A stretch of 64,000 bases of DNA. It comes from Nocardia ninae NBRC 108245. GTDB lineage: Bacteria > Actinomycetota > Actinomycetes > Mycobacteriales > Mycobacteriaceae. Both the position numbers and the translations under genes were made by a program. The stretch spans positions 1 through 64,000 of the forward strand of contig NZ_BJXA01000045.1 in assembly GCF_007990755.1 (NCBI RefSeq), read 5' to 3'. Below the pieces are notes generated by a model. It did no database searches. It was not told the DNA's origin and was given only the letters and a program-made list of their open reading frames with translations. Within the stretch, counting starts at the first letter, position 1. Each line of letters starts with the position of its first letter. Shown here one piece after another: positions 2,865-56,515 of this stretch.

Positions 2865-3602
2865 TCAGCGCGTGGCGCGGTGCGGGCCCGGGTGATCCTT
2901 GCGGCGGATGCAGGCGACACCGGCGCGGGGAAGCACTGCGCCACAGCGTGGTTCGCTGACGATCCGGCTCAGGTCGCCGACGTCCACTCCGGCGCGGGCG
3001 CGCGCCAAGGCGGCGCGCAGAGCGGATTCGGGATCGGGCCCGTCCGGACCCCACCCCTGCGACATTGCCGCATTGATCTCGTCTTTCGACATCACCCGGG
3101 CGATGGTCTCGTCGAGCAGTCCGGCGGCGACGACGGTGCGGATGAGGCCCTCCGGTGCTGATTCAGGCCGGTAGTCCCAGCCGTCGAGGCCGATATCTTC
3201 GGCAAGCACGTCGAGCAGAACGAGGGCTTGCCACAGCTCGGTGACTTCATCGAGAGTCAGTTGTCCGCAATGGATCAGCGCATTCGCCATGTCATAGGCG
3301 GCGTCTGCCCTGCGTGGACCTGCGCAGAGAACCTCGATGACGCCGACGCCATCGACAATCCTGCTGGCGAATACGACGCGGTGCTGTTTGCCGAGTACGT
3401 CGAGGGTGTTCCAGCCGGCCAACCGATCGCTGGTGCCACGGTTGCTCAAAGGGTGGGAGCCTGCTGGATTACCGCACAGCGTAAGCAGATCGACCAGGAC
3501 GGATTCGCATTCGGCAGCTGGTAGATCCTCGAGATACTCGACGAACGCGTCGGAGAACTCGAACTCCGCCTGGCCGCCGGGGAACGATTCGCCTTTCCTC
3601 AC
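2865..3602 (-). CDS. Putative type II toxin with RelE/ParE-like N-terminus and long C-terminal extension
   Basis: A 245-residue protein whose start overlaps the stop of a Phd/YefM-like antitoxin gene by 4 bp. Residues 10-110 look like a RelE/ParE superfamily toxin (FSDAFVEYLEDLP, SDRLAGWNTLDVLGKQHRVVFAS, then VIEVLCAGPRR). Typical toxins of this fold end near residue 100; here 130 further residues follow. The last 30 contain a Cys-x10-Cys-x5-His-x3-His arrangement that could bind zinc. The stop abuts the FMN reductase stop on the opposite strand. Toxin activity is inferred from gene pairing and weak fold resemblance; no catalytic residues could be assigned with confidence. Confidence 0.6.
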   Translation of the reverse strand: MRKGESFPGGQAEFEFSDAFVEYLEDLPAAECESVLVDLLTLCGNPAGSHPLSNRGTSDRLAGWNTLDVLGKQHRVVFASRIVDGVGVIEVLCAGPRRADAAYDMANALIHCGQLTLDEVTELWQALVLLDVLAEDIGLDGWDYRPESAPEGLIRTVVAAGLLDETIARVMSKDEINAAMSQGWGPDGPDPESALRAALARARAGVDVGDLSRIVSEPRCGAVLPRAGVACIRRKDHPGPHRATR

Positions 3603-3907
3603 CGATTCGCGACGCGCTCAGCCGCAAGGGTCCGCACCCTGGACTCGTCGACGCCGAGCCGGACGCACACCTCTGCGAGGTCGAACTTCCGGGTCCGCTT
3701 CGAAGCGAGATCGGCTGCGGCATCAAGGATTGCGAGTTGGGCCTCGCGAATCTTGCGCATGTCCTCGTCGATCCGATCGGCCGAATCCACAACGGCCACT
3801 GGCCGGCCGTGGCTGGTCAGTATGATGCGCTGTTCTTCGCTCGCTGCGACCAATCCGGACACGCCTTTGCGAGAAGCGGTGGTGATGGGCACCCGAACAG
3901 AAGTCAT
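3599..3907 (-). CDS. Phd/YefM-family antitoxin with C-terminal HTH-like extension
   Basis: A 102-residue protein. RVPITTASRKGVSGLVAASEEQRIILTSHGRPVAVV (residues 5-40) has the Phd/YefM signature, including the hallmark HGRPVAVV strand that forms the DNA-binding dimer. The usual toxin-neutralising tail is replaced or extended by KFDLAEVCVRLGVDESRVRTLA, which resembles a small helix-turn-helix. Stop and toxin start overlap (ATGA), as in many TA operons. A perfect 7+7 inverted repeat lies nine bases before the ATG, consistent with autorepression. The assignment as antitoxin is firm; the role of the tail is open. Confidence 0.8.
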   Translation of the reverse strand: MTSVRVPITTASRKGVSGLVAASEEQRIILTSHGRPVAVVDSADRIDEDMRKIREAQLAILDAAADLASKRTRKFDLAEVCVRLGVDESRVRTLAAERVANR

Positions 3908-3956: not shown

Positions 3957-5816
3957 TTAGTGACCGGTGCTGGTCAGGGTGGCGGGGAGGGGTTGGCCGC
4001 AGTTGTTGGGAGTGGGGGTGTTGGTGAGGTGGTCGGCGAACCATTGGATGACGCGGGGGGCGACGGCTTTTTCGTTGGCGTTGTCGTGGCCGACGCCGGG
4101 GTTCCATTGGGTGGTCACGGGGGTGCCTGCGGTGCAGTAGCGCTCGACGAGGGCGGCGGTGAATTTCGGGGGGACGAGGGTGTCGTCGAGGCCTTGGGCC
4201 AGGTAGACGGGGATGCCGGGGGGCATGTCGGGGGCGCGGTTCTCCTCGAAGGCGCGGCGCCAGGCGGGGTCGGCGAGGGGGTCGCCGTTGAAGTAGTCGC
4301 CCATGCCGGGGACGACGGTGAGGCGGGCGAACAGTGCCACGAAAGGTGTTGCGGCGCAGCCGGCTGCCGCCATTTCCTGGTTGCGCGCGGCGGCCTGCGG
4401 GGTGAGCAGTGCGTTGGGGTCGAGCTGGGGGTAGGCCTTGGCGTACTGGGTGGTGAGGAAGGGGGTGACGGCCCAGCCGTTGAGAAGTTGGGGTGGACTC
4501 TCGCGGAGGATGCCCGCGATATCGGAGGCGGGGGCGGTGGCGGCGTCGGCGACGAGGTGGAGTTCGGGGGCGTAGGTGGGCGTTTGGGCGGCGGCGGCCA
4601 GGGAGATGAGGCCGCCCTGCGAGACGCCGTAGATCAGCATGTCGGTGCCAGCGTGCGCGTCGGGCATGTTGCGGGCGGCGCGGGCGGCGTTCACGGTGTC
4701 GCGGCCCTGGTCGGTGGCGACGAGGTAGTGCTCGCCGTCGCCGGTGCCCGCCGCGCCGGCGTAGTCGCTGGCGGCGACCACCCAGCCGCGGCCGAGCGCG
4801 TCGTTCAGCCAGGGCATAGATGAGGCGATCTCGGATTGCCTGCTAGGTGCGCATTCGGCGCCGAGGCTGACGGTGCCGTGCGCGAAGTTCAGGATGGGTC
4901 GATCGGTGCCGTCGGTGAGGGGCGTCCAGATCATGCCGGAGGACACCGTCGGGGTGCCGTGCCGGTCCTGCGACCAGTAGAGGATGCGCTGGCCGTGTCC
5001 GTTCACGCCCGGTAGCGACATCGGGGACGAACGGATCACGGTGCCCGGCGGGCCGGGTGAAATGCCTTGTGGCACTTGATAGAACGCGTCCAGTCGAGAC
5101 TGCTCCGCGTCCTGTCGGGCAGCTTGGGTGACGACCGTTCCATACCAGCCCACCGCCACCGCGAGCACGACCAGCTGCACGCTCACCGCGACGGGCCGCC
5201 ACCAGCGCAGCGTGCTCGCGCGGGGCAGCGGAGCAGTCAGCCGGACACCGCGGACCACCATCGCCGCGCCGGTGATCAACAGCGTGAGGATGGTCCACGC
5301 GGTGAAATCCAAGCCGGTACGAAACGGCAGCGTCGCGAGGATCACGCCGGCAAGCACCTGCCAGCCCGCGAACGCCGCGGAGGCGACGAGCACGTCATCG
5401 CGGCGCGCACCGGACGCCAGCCCGCAGACGCCGAGCCCGATCCAGCACGCCCCGACCCAGATCAACGACGTCGACACCGACATGGTCAGCGCGGCGATAC
5501 CGAGCGCACCGAACCCGATGGCGACCAGCGCCTCGACGCCCAGCAACCGTTCAGTGCGCACGTATCCGGCGGACTCGTGGTCCGGCCGCTGATTGTCGGC
5601 TCGCGCCCACCACCACCGTGCGGCGGCAGACCCGCCGAGCATCAGCATCGCGGCCGCGACAACAACCCGTCCCTCGATGAGCGAGACACCGAAGGGCGAG
5701 TACAGCAGAACACCCGACACGAACACAGCCAACCCGGGCAGCCACCACGCGATTCCGCGTACGTCCCAGGTCCGGGCCTTGCCGGTCGCCACCTTGTCAT
5801 CCTGACGCTCGCTCAC
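3957..5816 (-). CDS. Membrane-anchored lipase: multi-TM domain fused to a secretory-lipase alpha/beta hydrolase
   Basis: A 619-residue two-part protein. Residues 20-235 contain about seven hydrophobic segments, the first six resembling the HdeD/DUF308 membrane fold. The rest is a LIP-type secretory lipase as found in Nocardia and mycobacteria: ILNFAHGTVSLGAECAPS, nucleophile elbow GVSQGG, acid region AQGLDDTLVPP and catalytic-His region NPGVGHDNANE. This places a triacylglycerol or ester hydrolase on the outer face of the membrane, if topology follows. I chose the GTG at 5816 because upstream in-frame sequence is Arg/Ser-rich repeat DNA and a GAGG precedes this GTG. The start lies in the last unit of an 80-bp tandem repeat. 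Confidence 0.78.
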   Translation of the reverse strand: MSERQDDKVATGKARTWDVRGIAWWLPGLAVFVSGVLLYSPFGVSLIEGRVVVAAAMLMLGGSAAARWWWARADNQRPDHESAGYVRTERLLGVEALVAIGFGALGIAALTMSVSTSLIWVGACWIGLGVCGLASGARRDDVLVASAAFAGWQVLAGVILATLPFRTGLDFTAWTILTLLITGAAMVVRGVRLTAPLPRASTLRWWRPVAVSVQLVVLAVAVGWYGTVVTQAARQDAEQSRLDAFYQVPQGISPGPPGTVIRSSPMSLPGVNGHGQRILYWSQDRHGTPTVSSGMIWTPLTDGTDRPILNFAHGTVSLGAECAPSRQSEIASSMPWLNDALGRGWVVAASDYAGAAGTGDGEHYLVATDQGRDTVNAARAARNMPDAHAGTDMLIYGVSQGGLISLAAAAQTPTYAPELHLVADAATAPASDIAGILRESPPQLLNGWAVTPFLTTQYAKAYPQLDPNALLTPQAAARNQEMAAAGCAATPFVALFARLTVVPGMGDYFNGDPLADPAWRRAFEENRAPDMPPGIPVYLAQGLDDTLVPPKFTAALVERYCTAGTPVTTQWNPGVGHDNANEKAVAPRVIQWFADHLTNTPTPNNCGQPLPATLTSTGH

Positions 5817-6056
5817 GGCTGCGCCTCGCCGACGCTCGGCTCCGCCGTGCGCGAGGGCGCACTGTGCCTTCGGTTCACTCGCTGACGCTCGCTCACGGCT
5901 GCGCCTCGCTGACGCTCGGCTCCGCCGTGCGCGAGGGCGCACTGTGCCTATGGTTCACTCGCTGACGCTCGCTCACGGCTGCGCCTCGCTGACGCTCGGC
6001 TCCGCCGTGCGCGAGGGCGCACTGTGCCTATGGTTCACTCGCTGACGCTCGCTCAC
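5801..6056. repeat. Tandem repeat, three 80-bp units plus 16 bp
   Basis: Units at 5801-5880, 5881-5960 and 5961-6040, with a 16-bp partial unit at 6041-6056. Units 2 and 3 are identical; unit 1 differs at a few bases. On the minus strand each begins with GTGAGCGAGCG and ends with GCGAGGCGCAGCC directly before the next GTG. The array ends at the lipase GTG. A 77-bp relative precedes fbiC at 32772-32848. With the next stretch to 6157 this fills a 341-bp gap that holds no conventional gene. Confidence 0.95.
5813..6056 (-). other. Three tandem coupled leader ORFs inside the repeat array
   Basis: Reading the minus strand, GTG codons at 6056, 5976 and 5896 each open a 27-codon frame ending in TGA. 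The peptides read VSERQRVNHRHS... to ...[10 protein letters not shown] (SVGEAQP in the last). Each TGA overlaps the next GTG as GTGA, and the third overlaps the lipase GTG at 5816. A GAGG core lies in each unit about 10 bases before its terminal GTG. This geometry fits translational coupling from leader to lipase. Whether the peptides are made or matter is unknown. Confidence 0.5.
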
Positions 6057-6157
6057 ACCGCCGCCTCCGTCCTTCGGTTACGCGGCAAAAAGCTGGATGC
6101 CGACAACTCTACGGACGGCTGACGAACGGTCGATGTGATCTTCGTCGGCCTGTGGGG

Positions 6158-6475
6158 TCAGCGGTCCCGCCACCGCCGTCGCGCCCATTTTCGCGCCGCC
6201 GGGCTGACGGCGAGAATTGGGAGGAACAGTACGAATCCGACCAATACGACCGGAATCAGCAGGTAGATGAGTAGCTCGCCGAGGATTTGAACGATGGTCG
6301 GAATCGCGAACGGCACCGCCAGCGCCGCGAGCGTGATCGCCACCGGATAGGCCCCACCCGAGGCTGCGGCGATCGCCGCGATCGCGAATCCGGCCGCGAG
6401 GACGAGCCCCAACAGGGCGACGAGATAGTTGTCCCACCATGCGTGTTGTTTCGTGTGAATCGAAGCGCCTCCCAA
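6158..6475 (-). CDS. Small membrane protein of unknown function
   Basis: A 105-residue protein with two or three hydrophobic stretches: YLVALLGLVLAAGFAIAAIAAA (residues 17-38), YPVAITLAALAVPFAIPTIV and ELLIYLLIPVVLVGFVLFLPIL. A short basic tail (ARKWARRRWRDR) follows, favouring a cytoplasmic C-terminus. I recognise no family. It stands alone between the repeat array upstream of the lipase and an EamA transporter gene on the same strand. Confidence 0.6.
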   Translation of the reverse strand: MGGASIHTKQHAWWDNYLVALLGLVLAAGFAIAAIAAASGGAYPVAITLAALAVPFAIPTIVQILGELLIYLLIPVVLVGFVLFLPILAVSPAARKWARRRWRDR

Positions 6476-32759: not shown

Positions 32760-32852
32760 ATGATCGAGGACGTGACTGAGCGCAGCGAAGGCACCATATA
32801 CACAGCACCGCCGGTCACGGCGGAGCCGAGCGTCAGCGAGGCGCAGCCGTGA
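32760..32852 (+). CDS. 30-residue leader ORF coupled to fbiC
   Basis: An ATG at 32760 opens a 30-codon frame, [19 protein letters not shown]... to ...[11 protein letters not shown]. Its TGA (32850-32852) overlaps the fbiC GTG at 32849. Upstream, GGAAGGAG (32731-32738) serves an ATG at 32749 that opens a four-codon frame (MVSA) whose TGA overlaps the leader ATG. This gives a chain of two overlaps leading into fbiC. From the GTG at 32772 onward the leader is a copy of the repeat unit found before the lipase. Translation is inferred from geometry. Confidence 0.55.
32772..32848 (+). repeat. Single 77-bp copy of the start-cassette repeat
   Basis: Begins GTGACTGAGCGCAGCGAAGG and shares an exact run from CACGGCGGAGCC (32816) to GCGCAGCC (32848) with the 80-bp units at 5801-6056. 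The following bases are the fbiC GTGA. It is 3 bp shorter than the lipase units, which preserves frame. Confidence 0.85.
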
Positions 32853-35437
32853 CTGAACTGCCGAGCCCGACTATTCCTGCTGCACCGCCTTCGCCATCGG
32901 CTATGCGGAGGGCGCTGCGGCGAGCCCGCGACGGCGTCACGTTGAACGTGGACGAGGCGGCCGTGCTGCTGCATGCGACCGGCGATGATCTGAAGGATTT
33001 GAGTCACAGCGCGGCCAGAGTCCGCGACGCGGGGCTGGAGTCGGCGGGGCGGCCGAAGACGATCAGCTACTCGCGCAATGTCTTCATCCCGCTGACCCGA
33101 TTGTGTCGCGACAAGTGCCACTACTGCACGTTCGTCACGGTGCCCGGCAAGCTGCGCGCCGAGGGCAAGGGCATGTTCCTGGAGCCCGACGAGGTGCTCG
33201 ACATCGCCCGACGCGGCGCGGCACTCGGCTGTAAAGAAGCACTCTTCACGCTCGGCGATCGCCCCGAGGACCGCTGGCCCGAGGCCGCGCAGTGGCTCGA
33301 CGAGCGCGGCTACGACTCCACCCTGGACTACCTGCGCGCCGTCTCGATCATGGTGCTGGAGGAGACCGGCCTGCTGCCGCATTTGAATCCAGGTGTGATG
33401 TCGTGGGAGGAGATCTCCCGGCTCAAGCCGGTCGCGCAGTCGATGGGCATGATGCTGGAGACCACCGCAACCAGGCTGTTCACCGAGAAGGGCAACTGCC
33501 ACTACGGCAGCCCGGACAAGGATCCGGCGGTCCGGCTGCGCGCCATCACCGACGCGGGCAGGCTGTCGGTGCCCTACACCACCGGCCTGCTGGTCGGCAT
33601 CGGCGAGACGCTGACCGAGCGCGCCGAGTCGATCATGGCGATTCGTAAGCAGCACAAGGCTTTCGGACACATCCAAGAAGTGATCATCCAGAACTTCCGG
33701 GCCAAGGACGACACCGCCATGCGCGATGTCCCCGACGCGGGCATCGAGGAGTTCCTGGCCACCATCGCGGTGACCAGGCTGCTGCTGGGCCCGGACGTGC
33801 CGGTGCAGGCGCCGCCGAACCTGGTGTCGCACGAGGACTGCCAGGCGCTGATCGACGCGGGCATCGATGACTGGGGTGGCGTGTCGCCGGTGACGGTGGA
33901 CCACGTGAACCCGGAGCGGCCGTGGCCGAACCTGGACACCCTCCGCGAGATCACCGAGGCGGCCGGTTACCAGCTGGTCGAGCGGACGTCCGCGCATCCG
34001 AAGTACGTGCGGGCGGGCAGTCCGTGGATCGATCCGCGGATCGGCGTACACGTCGCCGCGCTGAGCGATCCGGCGACCGGCCTGGCGAACCCGGACGCGA
34101 TGCCGGTCGGCCTGCCCTGGCAGGAGCCGGACCAGTCCTGGGAATCCGCAGGACGGGTCGACCTGAACACCGCCATCGATACCGAGGGCCGCAACACCGA
34201 GAGCCGCAGCGACTCCGCGATCGGCCAGGACGTGGTCGGCGCGTTCGGTGATTGGGACACCATCCGCGAACAGGCCCGCGATCTCGCGATCGTCGCGCCG
34301 GAACGGCTCGACTCCGAGGTGCTCGCCGCGCTGCGTGCGGCCGAGAAGGACCCGGCCGGGCTCAGTGACGCCGAGTATCTGGCCTTGGCCACGGCCGACG
34401 GCGCGAACCTGGAGGCCGTCGCCGCGCTGGCCGATCAGCTGCGCCGCGACACCGTCGGCGACGACGTCACCTACGTGGTGAACCGGAACATCAACTTCAC
34501 CAACATCTGCTACACCGGCTGCCGGTTCTGCGCGTTCGCCCAGCGCAAGGGCGACGCCGACGCGTTCACGCTGAGCATGGACGAGGTCGCCGACCGGGCC
34601 TGGGAGGCGCACGTCGACGGCGCCACCGAGGTCTGCATGCAGGGCGGCATCGACCCCGACCTGCCGGTCACCGGCTACGCCGACATCGTGCGGGCGGTGA
34701 AGCAGCGGGTGCCGTCGATGCACGTGCACGCGTTCAGCCCGATGGAGATCGTCAACGGTGCTTCGCGCGGCGGGCAGAGCATCCGGGACTGGCTGGTCGC
34801 GCTGAAGGAGGCCGGCCTGGACACCATCCCTGGCACCGCCGCCGAGATCCTGGACGACGAGGTGCGCTGGGTGCTCACCAAGGGCAAGCTGCCGACCTCC
34901 GCCTGGATCGAGGTGATCACCACCGCGCACCAGATCGGCCTGCGCTCCAGCTCGACCATGATGTACGGCCACGTGGACAACCCGAAGCACTGGGTCGGAC
35001 ACCTACGCGTACTGCGCGGAATCCAGGACGAGACAGGCGGTTTCACCGAGTTCGTGCTGCTGCCGTTCGTGCACCAGAGCGCGCCGCTGTACCTGGCGGG
35101 CGCCGCACGACCGGGCCCGACCAACCGGGACAACCGGGCCGCGCACGCGCTGTCGCGGATCATGCTGCACGGCCGGATCGACAACATCCAGACCAGCTGG
35201 GTGAAGCTCGGCACCACCGGCACCAGGGTGATGCTCACCAGCGGTGCCAACGACGTCGGCGGCACGCTGATGGAGGAGACGATCTCCCGGATGGCGGGCT
35301 CGCAGCACGGCTCGGCGAAGACCGTCGCGGAACTGGTGGACATCGCCGCGGGTATCGGACGGCCGGCCCGGGAACGGACCACCACGTATGGCGTTCCGCA
35401 GCACAAGTTTTCGGCACTGCCGCTTTCGGTCGGTTAG
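32849..35437 (+). CDS. fbiC: Bifunctional FO synthase (CofG/CofH), F420 biosynthesis
   Basis: An 862-residue fusion of two radical-SAM enzymes. The CofG half has CRDKCHYC (near residue 88) and the CofH half CYTGCRFC (near residue 553), each the Cys-x3-Cys-x2-Cys site for a [4Fe-4S] cluster. Together they make the deazaflavin FO from a diaminouracil and tyrosine, the chromophore of F420. [21 protein letters not shown] and [21 protein letters not shown] are diagnostic. The GTG at 32849 overlaps a leader ORF stop and carries GAGG upstream, supplied by repeat DNA. The first 20 residues are not conserved. Confidence 0.96.
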
Positions 35438-56262: not shown

Positions 56263-56288
56263 GACGAACCCGCACCCCCCTCTCGGGA

Positions 56289-56515
56289 TCCGCACCGCCT
56301 CCGGCGTCCGCAAGCGGTGCAGATTCCGAGACAGGGTGCGCCTGGGGGCTGCACTCTTTGTTGGGGCCCGCATCGCCTCGGGCCGCCCGCAAGCGGCAGG
56401 GTCCCAGAGCGGGTGCAACTTGGGGCCGAACATTTGTTGGGGTCCGCACCGTCTCGGGCGGCCCGCAAGCGGTGCAGGCCCCTGAGAAGGGGTGCACCCT
56501 TTGCTGACTGCGGGG
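56289..56515. repeat. Three tandem imperfect 73-78 bp repeats between convergent genes
   Basis: Copies at 56289-56366, 56367-56442 and 56443-56515. Each opens with (T/C)CCGCA(C/T)CG(C/T)CTC and carries CCGCAAGCGG; copies 1 and 2 end TTGTTGGGG and copy 3 ends ACTGCGGGG. Each left half can fold (GCACCG...CGGTGC in copies 1 and 3). They fill the 259-bp spacer between the catalytic subunit gene and xdhC. Confidence 0.8.

Follow-up and report, generated by a model that had tools for sequence, protein, structure and literature searches.

Introduction

The tandem repeats of mycobacterial MIRUs are in common use for typing tuberculosis isolates, and the MIRU itself was reportedly described by Supply et al. 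in 1997 as lacking dyad symmetry. Short, structured, non-autonomous repeats with clean empty sites and a short target beside the end of the element are also known among the IS200/IS605-derived passengers and in REP/RAYT systems. A 2025 review (PMC12548453), citing Supply et al. 1997, presents MIRUs as apparently mobile elements whose insertion takes place at start codons and whose internal ORF is coupled to the gene at -4 nt, a coupling that likely permits insertion with minimal impact; a hairpin over the downstream start that is opened by upstream translation is given there as one published model of coupling. Another source (PMC4213456) gives unit lengths of 77 and 53 bp and restricts MIRUs to M. 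leprae and the M. tuberculosis complex. According to further papers, the tandem number varies among strains (PMC9392950), 41 MIRU loci occur in one genome and their function was called not well understood (both PMC2734929), and a listed stem-loop family of M. tuberculosis includes MIRU repeats (PMC2267715).

Here we describe the start region of a lipase gene of Nocardia ninae NBRC 108245 within a stretch of 64,000 nt, hereafter the window (contig NZ_BJXA01000045.1, positions 1 to 64,000 of the forward strand). Judging from sequence comparison, we consider it highly probable that the array at this start is made up of a dispersed element of approximately 80 bp, repeated here three times in tandem, that sits on start codons, is likely to be mobile, and is predicted to pass ribosomes on across 4-nt NTGA overlaps.

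Results

Three mini-ORFs in tandem at the lipase start

The gene (3957..5816, minus strand; 619 codons from a GTG at 5816) encodes a secretory-lipase-type alpha/beta hydrolase (Pfam LIP PF03583, E 3.6e-25). Tandem Repeats Finder, run on the window, returned a repeat at 5802-6056 with period 80, 3.2 copies and 98% matches, corresponding to three full units and a short partial fourth on the minus strand. An earlier sequence-only reading of this DNA had claimed three 80-bp minus-strand units, each a 27-codon mini-ORF with a TGA overlapping the next GTG, the last overlap falling on the lipase start. Indeed, in the ORF listing unit 1 (5973..6056) starts at GTG 6056 and its TGA overlaps GTG 5976, unit 2 (5893..5976) ends in a TGA overlapping GTG 5896, and unit 3 (5813..5896) ends in a TGA (5815-5813) overlapping the lipase GTG at 5816, all three being 27-codon mini-ORFs on the minus strand. 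With the covariance model R1 described below they score 99.3, 99.3 and 94.2 bits, respectively. The GAGG that had been noticed shortly before the terminal GTG of each unit is present as well, 7 nt ahead in all three; the copy before the lipase GTG lies at 5824..5827 (minus strand), and a GGAGG (6064..6068, minus strand) precedes unit 1. Past unit 3, the lipase coding sequence opens with the unit-like bases GCGAGCGTCAG. Allowing at most one mismatch, the 13-mer GAGCGTCAGCGAG occurs seven times in the window, a number matched in 0 of 100 shuffles, and the seventh occurrence falls in a lone plus-strand copy of the element (32772-32852). Since the lipase open frame extends upstream through the cassette as far as 5942, gene annotation at this locus is affected.

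In the search for close relatives of the lipase, from which records very near the window were possibly absent, only that of N. suismassiliense was found (94% identical). The site holds three units in N. ninae, one in N. suismassiliense and none in the relative G008 (locus L230), which bears out the earlier expectation that unit number can vary. In G008, the GGACGGAGG that stands before unit 1 of the array directly precedes the lipase start, matching the GGAGG at 6064..6068. In N. suismassiliense the 15-mers at the two ends of the single unit differ at one base, and recombination between two such 15-mers probably underlies the growth of the array. An ordinary minisatellite, that is, an 80-bp tandem repeat made by slippage with overlaps arising by chance, would be in keeping with these terminal 15-mers and with units that are 98% alike, as in seemingly recent tandem growth. 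However, at least 78 dispersed copies share the phase and the start-codon placement, so we give this explanation scarcely any credence; it is refuted for the element itself, and slippage can account only for the growth from one to three units.

Downstream of the lipase lies a PhdYeFM-antitoxin-like ORF (3599-3907; below the Pfam cut-off), which overlaps the start of a 245-aa ORF without a Pfam match (2865-3602); the pair (2865-3907) is possibly toxin-antitoxin-like. The window contains one other tandem repeat at 56285-56472, GC-rich and with a unit of ~76 bp (2.4 copies, 78% matches), which appears unrelated to the cassette.

A dispersed family in the N. ninae genome

With the array as query, 40 matches were found in the N. 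ninae genome (9.70 Mb, 204 contigs). The covariance model R1, built from 18 N. ninae copies, gave 95 matches, at least 78 of them with 34.9 bits or more; the best 150 of 16542 candidates were scored, and 78 copies is therefore a lower bound. Like MIRUs, these copies are dispersed repeats in the range of 40-100 bp; counted with the NTGA at each end, the commonest lengths are 72, 81 and 84 bp. They fall at 67 sites, of which seven hold more than one unit, and this, together with the 0, 1 or 3 units at the lipase of three species, amounts to the variable tandem number described for MIRUs. The second copy in the window, the single one at 32772..32852 (plus strand), has its 3' GTGA at the start of an 862-codon ORF (32849-35437) that we take, from two cysteine motifs, to resemble the FO synthase FbiC. 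Other host gene starts in N. ninae presumably belong to genes resembling trpA, metG, purB, ilvN and hemA. Two arrays, G000:C10:38587-38959 and C3:203323-203531, comprise four and three diverged units with the phase broken in some, and are likely old and decaying.

Reading phase and placement on gene starts

An ATGA, GTGA or TTGA stands at the 3' end of 74 of the 78 copies, at the 5' end of 68 and at both ends of 66, counts that are partly circular because the training copies of R1 were chosen by a pattern requiring NTGA at both ends; phase, openness and downstream coding are free of this circularity. Among the 66 copies with both ends, the start-to-start distance is 2 mod 3 in 61 (p ~1e-23 against 1/3), so that the frame from the 5' NTG terminates in the TGA of the 3' NTGA. 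The commonest distances are 77 (26 copies), 80 (23) and 68 (7), and one copy has a distance of 53. An open mini-ORF overlaps the next start exactly in 59 of the 66, and thus an internal ORF overlapping the downstream start at -4 nt, as described for MIRUs, is seen in these copies as well as in the lipase array.

Beyond the element, terminal copies with a 3' NTGA run in frame into coding sequence in 56 of 65 cases, judged by a frame that is open for 80 codons or more and in which GC3-GC2 is strongest, as against 859 of 2941 control RTGAs (29%) at the same loci; nine of the 65 fail this test. The sequence-only reading had proposed, as a check, to ask whether genomic copies are placed at random relative to gene starts and frames. 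They are not, with 61 of 66 keeping the coupling phase and 56 of 65 terminal copies entering a coding frame. In 18 of 56 first units, the TGA of the RTGA is also the stop codon of the upstream gene.

The interior of the element varies in a compensating manner. Among the 37 of 66 copies that are divisible into parts, 23 of the 27 with a short hairpin-1 loop have a middle part of 2 mod 3, and all 10 in which this loop is one base longer have one of 1 mod 3. These internal indels keep the phase of the ends while the peptide varies between copies. This bears on the idea that the mini-ORF encodes a functional leader peptide, as might be suspected from a frame that stays open in 63 of 66 copies, as opposed to 0 and 27 for the two alternative frames, and from an exact overlap in 68 of 77 copies outside the genus. 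The peptides, however, differ from copy to copy, because the indels shift the middle frame, and we find a functional peptide very improbable.

Empty and filled sites in related species

The joined flanks of 24 of the 67 N. ninae sites, picked for strong scores and mostly clean ends, were searched in N. suismassiliense and three other Nocardia, the best 40 candidates at most being scored per genome. In N. suismassiliense, 17 of the 24 sites are contiguous, that is, empty, while seven are filled in both species. When aligned, the empty site reads flank-NTGA-flank and the filled site flank-RTGA-element-RTGA-flank, the NTGA of the 17 empty sites being RTGA in 16 and TTGA in one. The bases just before the NTGA differ between the species at several empty sites, which lowers the exactness of the junction there. 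The 17 empty sites among 24, and the 18 of 56 first units at stop/start junctions, agree with the insertion at NTGA starts, including coupled junctions, that is described for MIRUs. The converse arrangement occurs as well: five of the seven N. suismassiliense sites tested are empty in N. ninae, one is shared, and at one there are apparently two units in N. suismassiliense compared with one in N. ninae.

At three sites (C50, C124 and C32_24492) the copy in G008 is closest, among the 66 N. ninae copies, to the copy at the same site (identity 0.87-0.96), and N. suismassiliense is empty at all three although the flanks of G008 diverge more from N. ninae. This pattern suggests that clean loss, or replacement by an empty allele, occurs besides gain. 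In five other same-site comparisons the best match lay elsewhere and the same-site copy ranked 2-10 of 66, so repeated insertion at one site may have occurred too. The empty sites L132 and L134 of N. suismassiliense read GCAGGCATGA, identical to the ten 3'-end bases of the element that fills the N. ninae site; they could be scars left behind by a lost copy, or else targets whose match to the element is extended.

Predicted hairpins over both start codons

Folding of 18 copies with RNAalifold predicts two hairpins, for which pairs were counted in 68 copies. Hairpin 1 contains the start codon of the mini-ORF (6033..6056, minus strand, for unit 1 of the lipase array), while in hairpin 2 the gene start lies in the outer stem and the inner stem takes up part of the GAGG. 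In unit 3, the predicted 3' hairpin spans 5814..5849 (minus strand), and the lipase GTG is held in the outer stem 5849-5844/5819-5814. Across the 68 copies, 93% of pair cells are standard, 13 of 17 pairs show two-sided change, and G-U outnumbers A-C on the coding strand by 101 to 25, an excess expected from folding of the coding-strand RNA; because the copies are related, neither covariation nor wobble cells count as independent, and the alignment was also fitted to the structure. None of 500 shuffles reached any of five measures, and in a control in which partners were slid, pairing fell to 17-40%. The base of the gene start codon and its partner form C-G in 31 copies, T-A in 28 and other combinations in 9. 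In eight copies the bases at the two ends differ, and each hairpin pairs with its own (GCTA in six, ATCG in two). In a tree test for joint change of the start-codon base and its partner in excess of shared ancestry, the 3' R changed 14 times on the best tree, with one supported independent pair. For 5600-6300, Rfam yielded no match with E of 1 or less, and there was none at gathering score in the window.

Filled sites are predicted to have a less accessible start than their empty orthologues, the unpaired probability of the start codon being 0.16 compared with 0.45 (17 pairs, p 0.0003). For a wider Shine-Dalgarno window the same 17 pairs gave no significant difference in accessibility (p 0.11). 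Outside the genus, where 57 of 77 copies were run, predicted pairing of the start codon averaged 0.65 as against 0.39 in mononucleotide shuffles, and it was higher than in the shuffles in 46 of the 57.

A conceivable alternative role for the hairpins would be in mobility, through a single-strand DNA or RNA intermediate in which an internal CAY pairs with the target RTG, the translational side being a by-product of the landing place. The internal Y fits the 3' R in 59 of 68 copies and, by eye, in 17 of the 17 whose N. suismassiliense site is empty, and of the 66 copies whose two ends both carry A or G, 56 have the same base as 5' and 3' R. But the six GCTA and two ATCG copies pair locally in each hairpin despite their differing ends. 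Empty and filled alleles in both directions between N. ninae and N. suismassiliense would follow from such a process, whereas target choice alone leaves the 2 mod 3 length, the open frame and the compensating indels unexplained. The wobble bias of the sense strand fits RNA, though it is also compatible with single-strand DNA of that strand, and the N. ninae genome lacks a Y1 transposase. All in all, we regard a purely mobility-related role as somewhat unlikely.

Search for a mobiliser

The Y1 transposase domain PF01797 has 0 matches in the N. ninae genome and is present in three of the 15 Nocardia searched, with no evident relation to copy number, and we thus rejected this transposase as the mover. 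When we looked for a longer element sharing the 3' end, all 42 matches to the 3' half (0-1 mismatch) lay, compared by eye, inside R1 matches, so that no autonomous partner was seen.

Distribution across genomes

R1 matches occur in 21 of 24 Nocardia genomes, including N. ninae, with 1 to 99 copies each, and in three of 16 genomes of the order outside Nocardia. A wider model, R2, was used with stricter filters in three surveys. Within the order, 67 of 200 genomes, representing 22 of 60 genera, had matches; within the family, 52 of 401 genomes did, 47 being Nocardia; and in a sample of 296 genomes from the class there were 24 with matches, 19 of which lie outside the order. The 68 copies outside the genus in which the open frame exactly overlaps the next start come from four sets (14/17, 25/26, 16/19 and 13/15). 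Two more copies of the first set fit when the match is extended by two bases, and the 19-copy set leaves out three copies at contig ends and L226. In most of these copies the next start opens a long frame, and in a few it opens a further unit. In L225 the first start codon of the copy itself is missing, and L209 looks like a false match.

In G038, from another family, the 5' hairpin of L103-L130 is a near-perfect palindrome with covarying GTGAGC/GCTCAC, GTGAAC/GTTCAC, GTGACC/GGTCAC and GTGATC/GATCAC. A cassette on the start of the same kind of gene, which we take to resemble ilvN, encoding the small subunit of acetolactate synthase, is found both in Nocardia (G000:C6:148097-148180) and in a family outside the order (L260); these two are perhaps independent insertions.

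The uneven distribution is relevant to whether the element is an adaptive regulatory cassette, kept because copy number and hairpins tune or condition the lipase and other genes. Covarying hairpins on start codons and the lower accessibility of the start could make expression conditional, and unit numbers of 0, 1 and 3 at the lipase would suit such a role. Yet the host genes, judged from protein starts, appear unrelated in function, the number of copies ranges from 0 to 99 per genome within one genus, and 17 of 24 sites are empty in the close relative N. suismassiliense, which means that most tested sites were not kept. We therefore consider an adaptive cassette unlikely.

Discussion

The best reading of these observations, resting on comparative sequence evidence, is that of a MIRU-like mobile element whose tolerance would stem from translational coupling between its mini-ORF and the gene. 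The element would insert at an RTGA, often where the stop codon of an upstream gene overlaps the start, and the gene's original Shine-Dalgarno sequence would then drive the mini-ORF. Ribosomes translating the mini-ORF would melt the 3' hairpin that otherwise hides the new start, and would re-initiate there after the overlapping TGA, aided by the GAGG that the element carries; in tandem units, the same hand-over step would be chained several times. Such a coupling mechanism would explain the length of 2 mod 3, the compensating indels and the tolerance of insertions in trpA-, metG-, purB-, ilvN- and hemA-like genes. It is likely that the element has in this way moved among gene starts while the genes escaped silencing.

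The sequence-only reading had interpreted the array as a repeatable translation-coupling leader that could tune or shield lipase synthesis. The repeatable coupling leader is well supported by sequence; an evolved tuning or shielding role is not, the tolerance of a mobile element being the simpler explanation. What that interpretation lacked is that the unit is one of ~78 dispersed copies, structured and likely mobile, of the kind described as MIRU. A broader proposal seems to us quite possible, at slightly less than an even chance. The MIRUs would be one twig of an old, class-wide actinomycete superfamily of mobile start cassettes, each a structured RNA-level parasite of 60-90 nt sitting exactly on a start codon. 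The start would be hidden in a hairpin and reopened only via the cassette's own mini-ORF, making the host gene dependent on translation of the parasite; an internal base that pairs with the start codon may help to determine whether an ATGA or a GTGA is targeted, and the mover would also be able to excise scarlessly.

Searches of open-access papers for MIRU-like elements outside mycobacteria, or for the MIRU mechanism, gave no such report for Nocardia. Within the limits of these searches, the family in Nocardia, its relatives elsewhere, the sites found both empty and filled, the compensating indels and the covarying hairpins on both start codons are new. If MIRUs have relatives in Nocardia and further actinomycetes, with copy numbers reaching dozens, sites that are empty in one close species and filled in another, and a clear predicted RNA structure, both function and movement would become testable outside mycobacteria.

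How does the cassette compare with known systems? With ordinary NTGA-overlap translational coupling it shares an NTGA that serves as stop and start, but the upstream ORF of the cassette is a dispersed insert instead of a host gene. Like IS200/IS605 passengers and REP/RAYT repeats it is short, structured and non-autonomous, with clean empty sites and a target next to its end; it differs from them in its location at start codons, its fixed reading phase and the absence of a Y1 transposase from N. ninae. The MIRU, as described in the sources, resembles the cassette in start-codon insertion, in an internal ORF coupled at -4 nt and in variable tandem number. Its described lengths of 77 and 53 bp are both 2 mod 3, and the Nocardia cassette most commonly has a start-to-start distance of 77, with one copy of 53. 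In contrast to the MIRU, which one source (PMC4213456) confines to M. leprae and the M. tuberculosis complex, the cassette occurs in Nocardia and other families. The cassette has covarying hairpins, whereas the MIRU is said to have no dyad symmetry. Yet the stem-loop family listed in PMC2267715 includes MIRU repeats, and the hairpin as such may thus be neither new nor a difference. Judged by its described features, the mycobacterial MIRU works in the same manner as is predicted for the cassette, and the two are probably akin.
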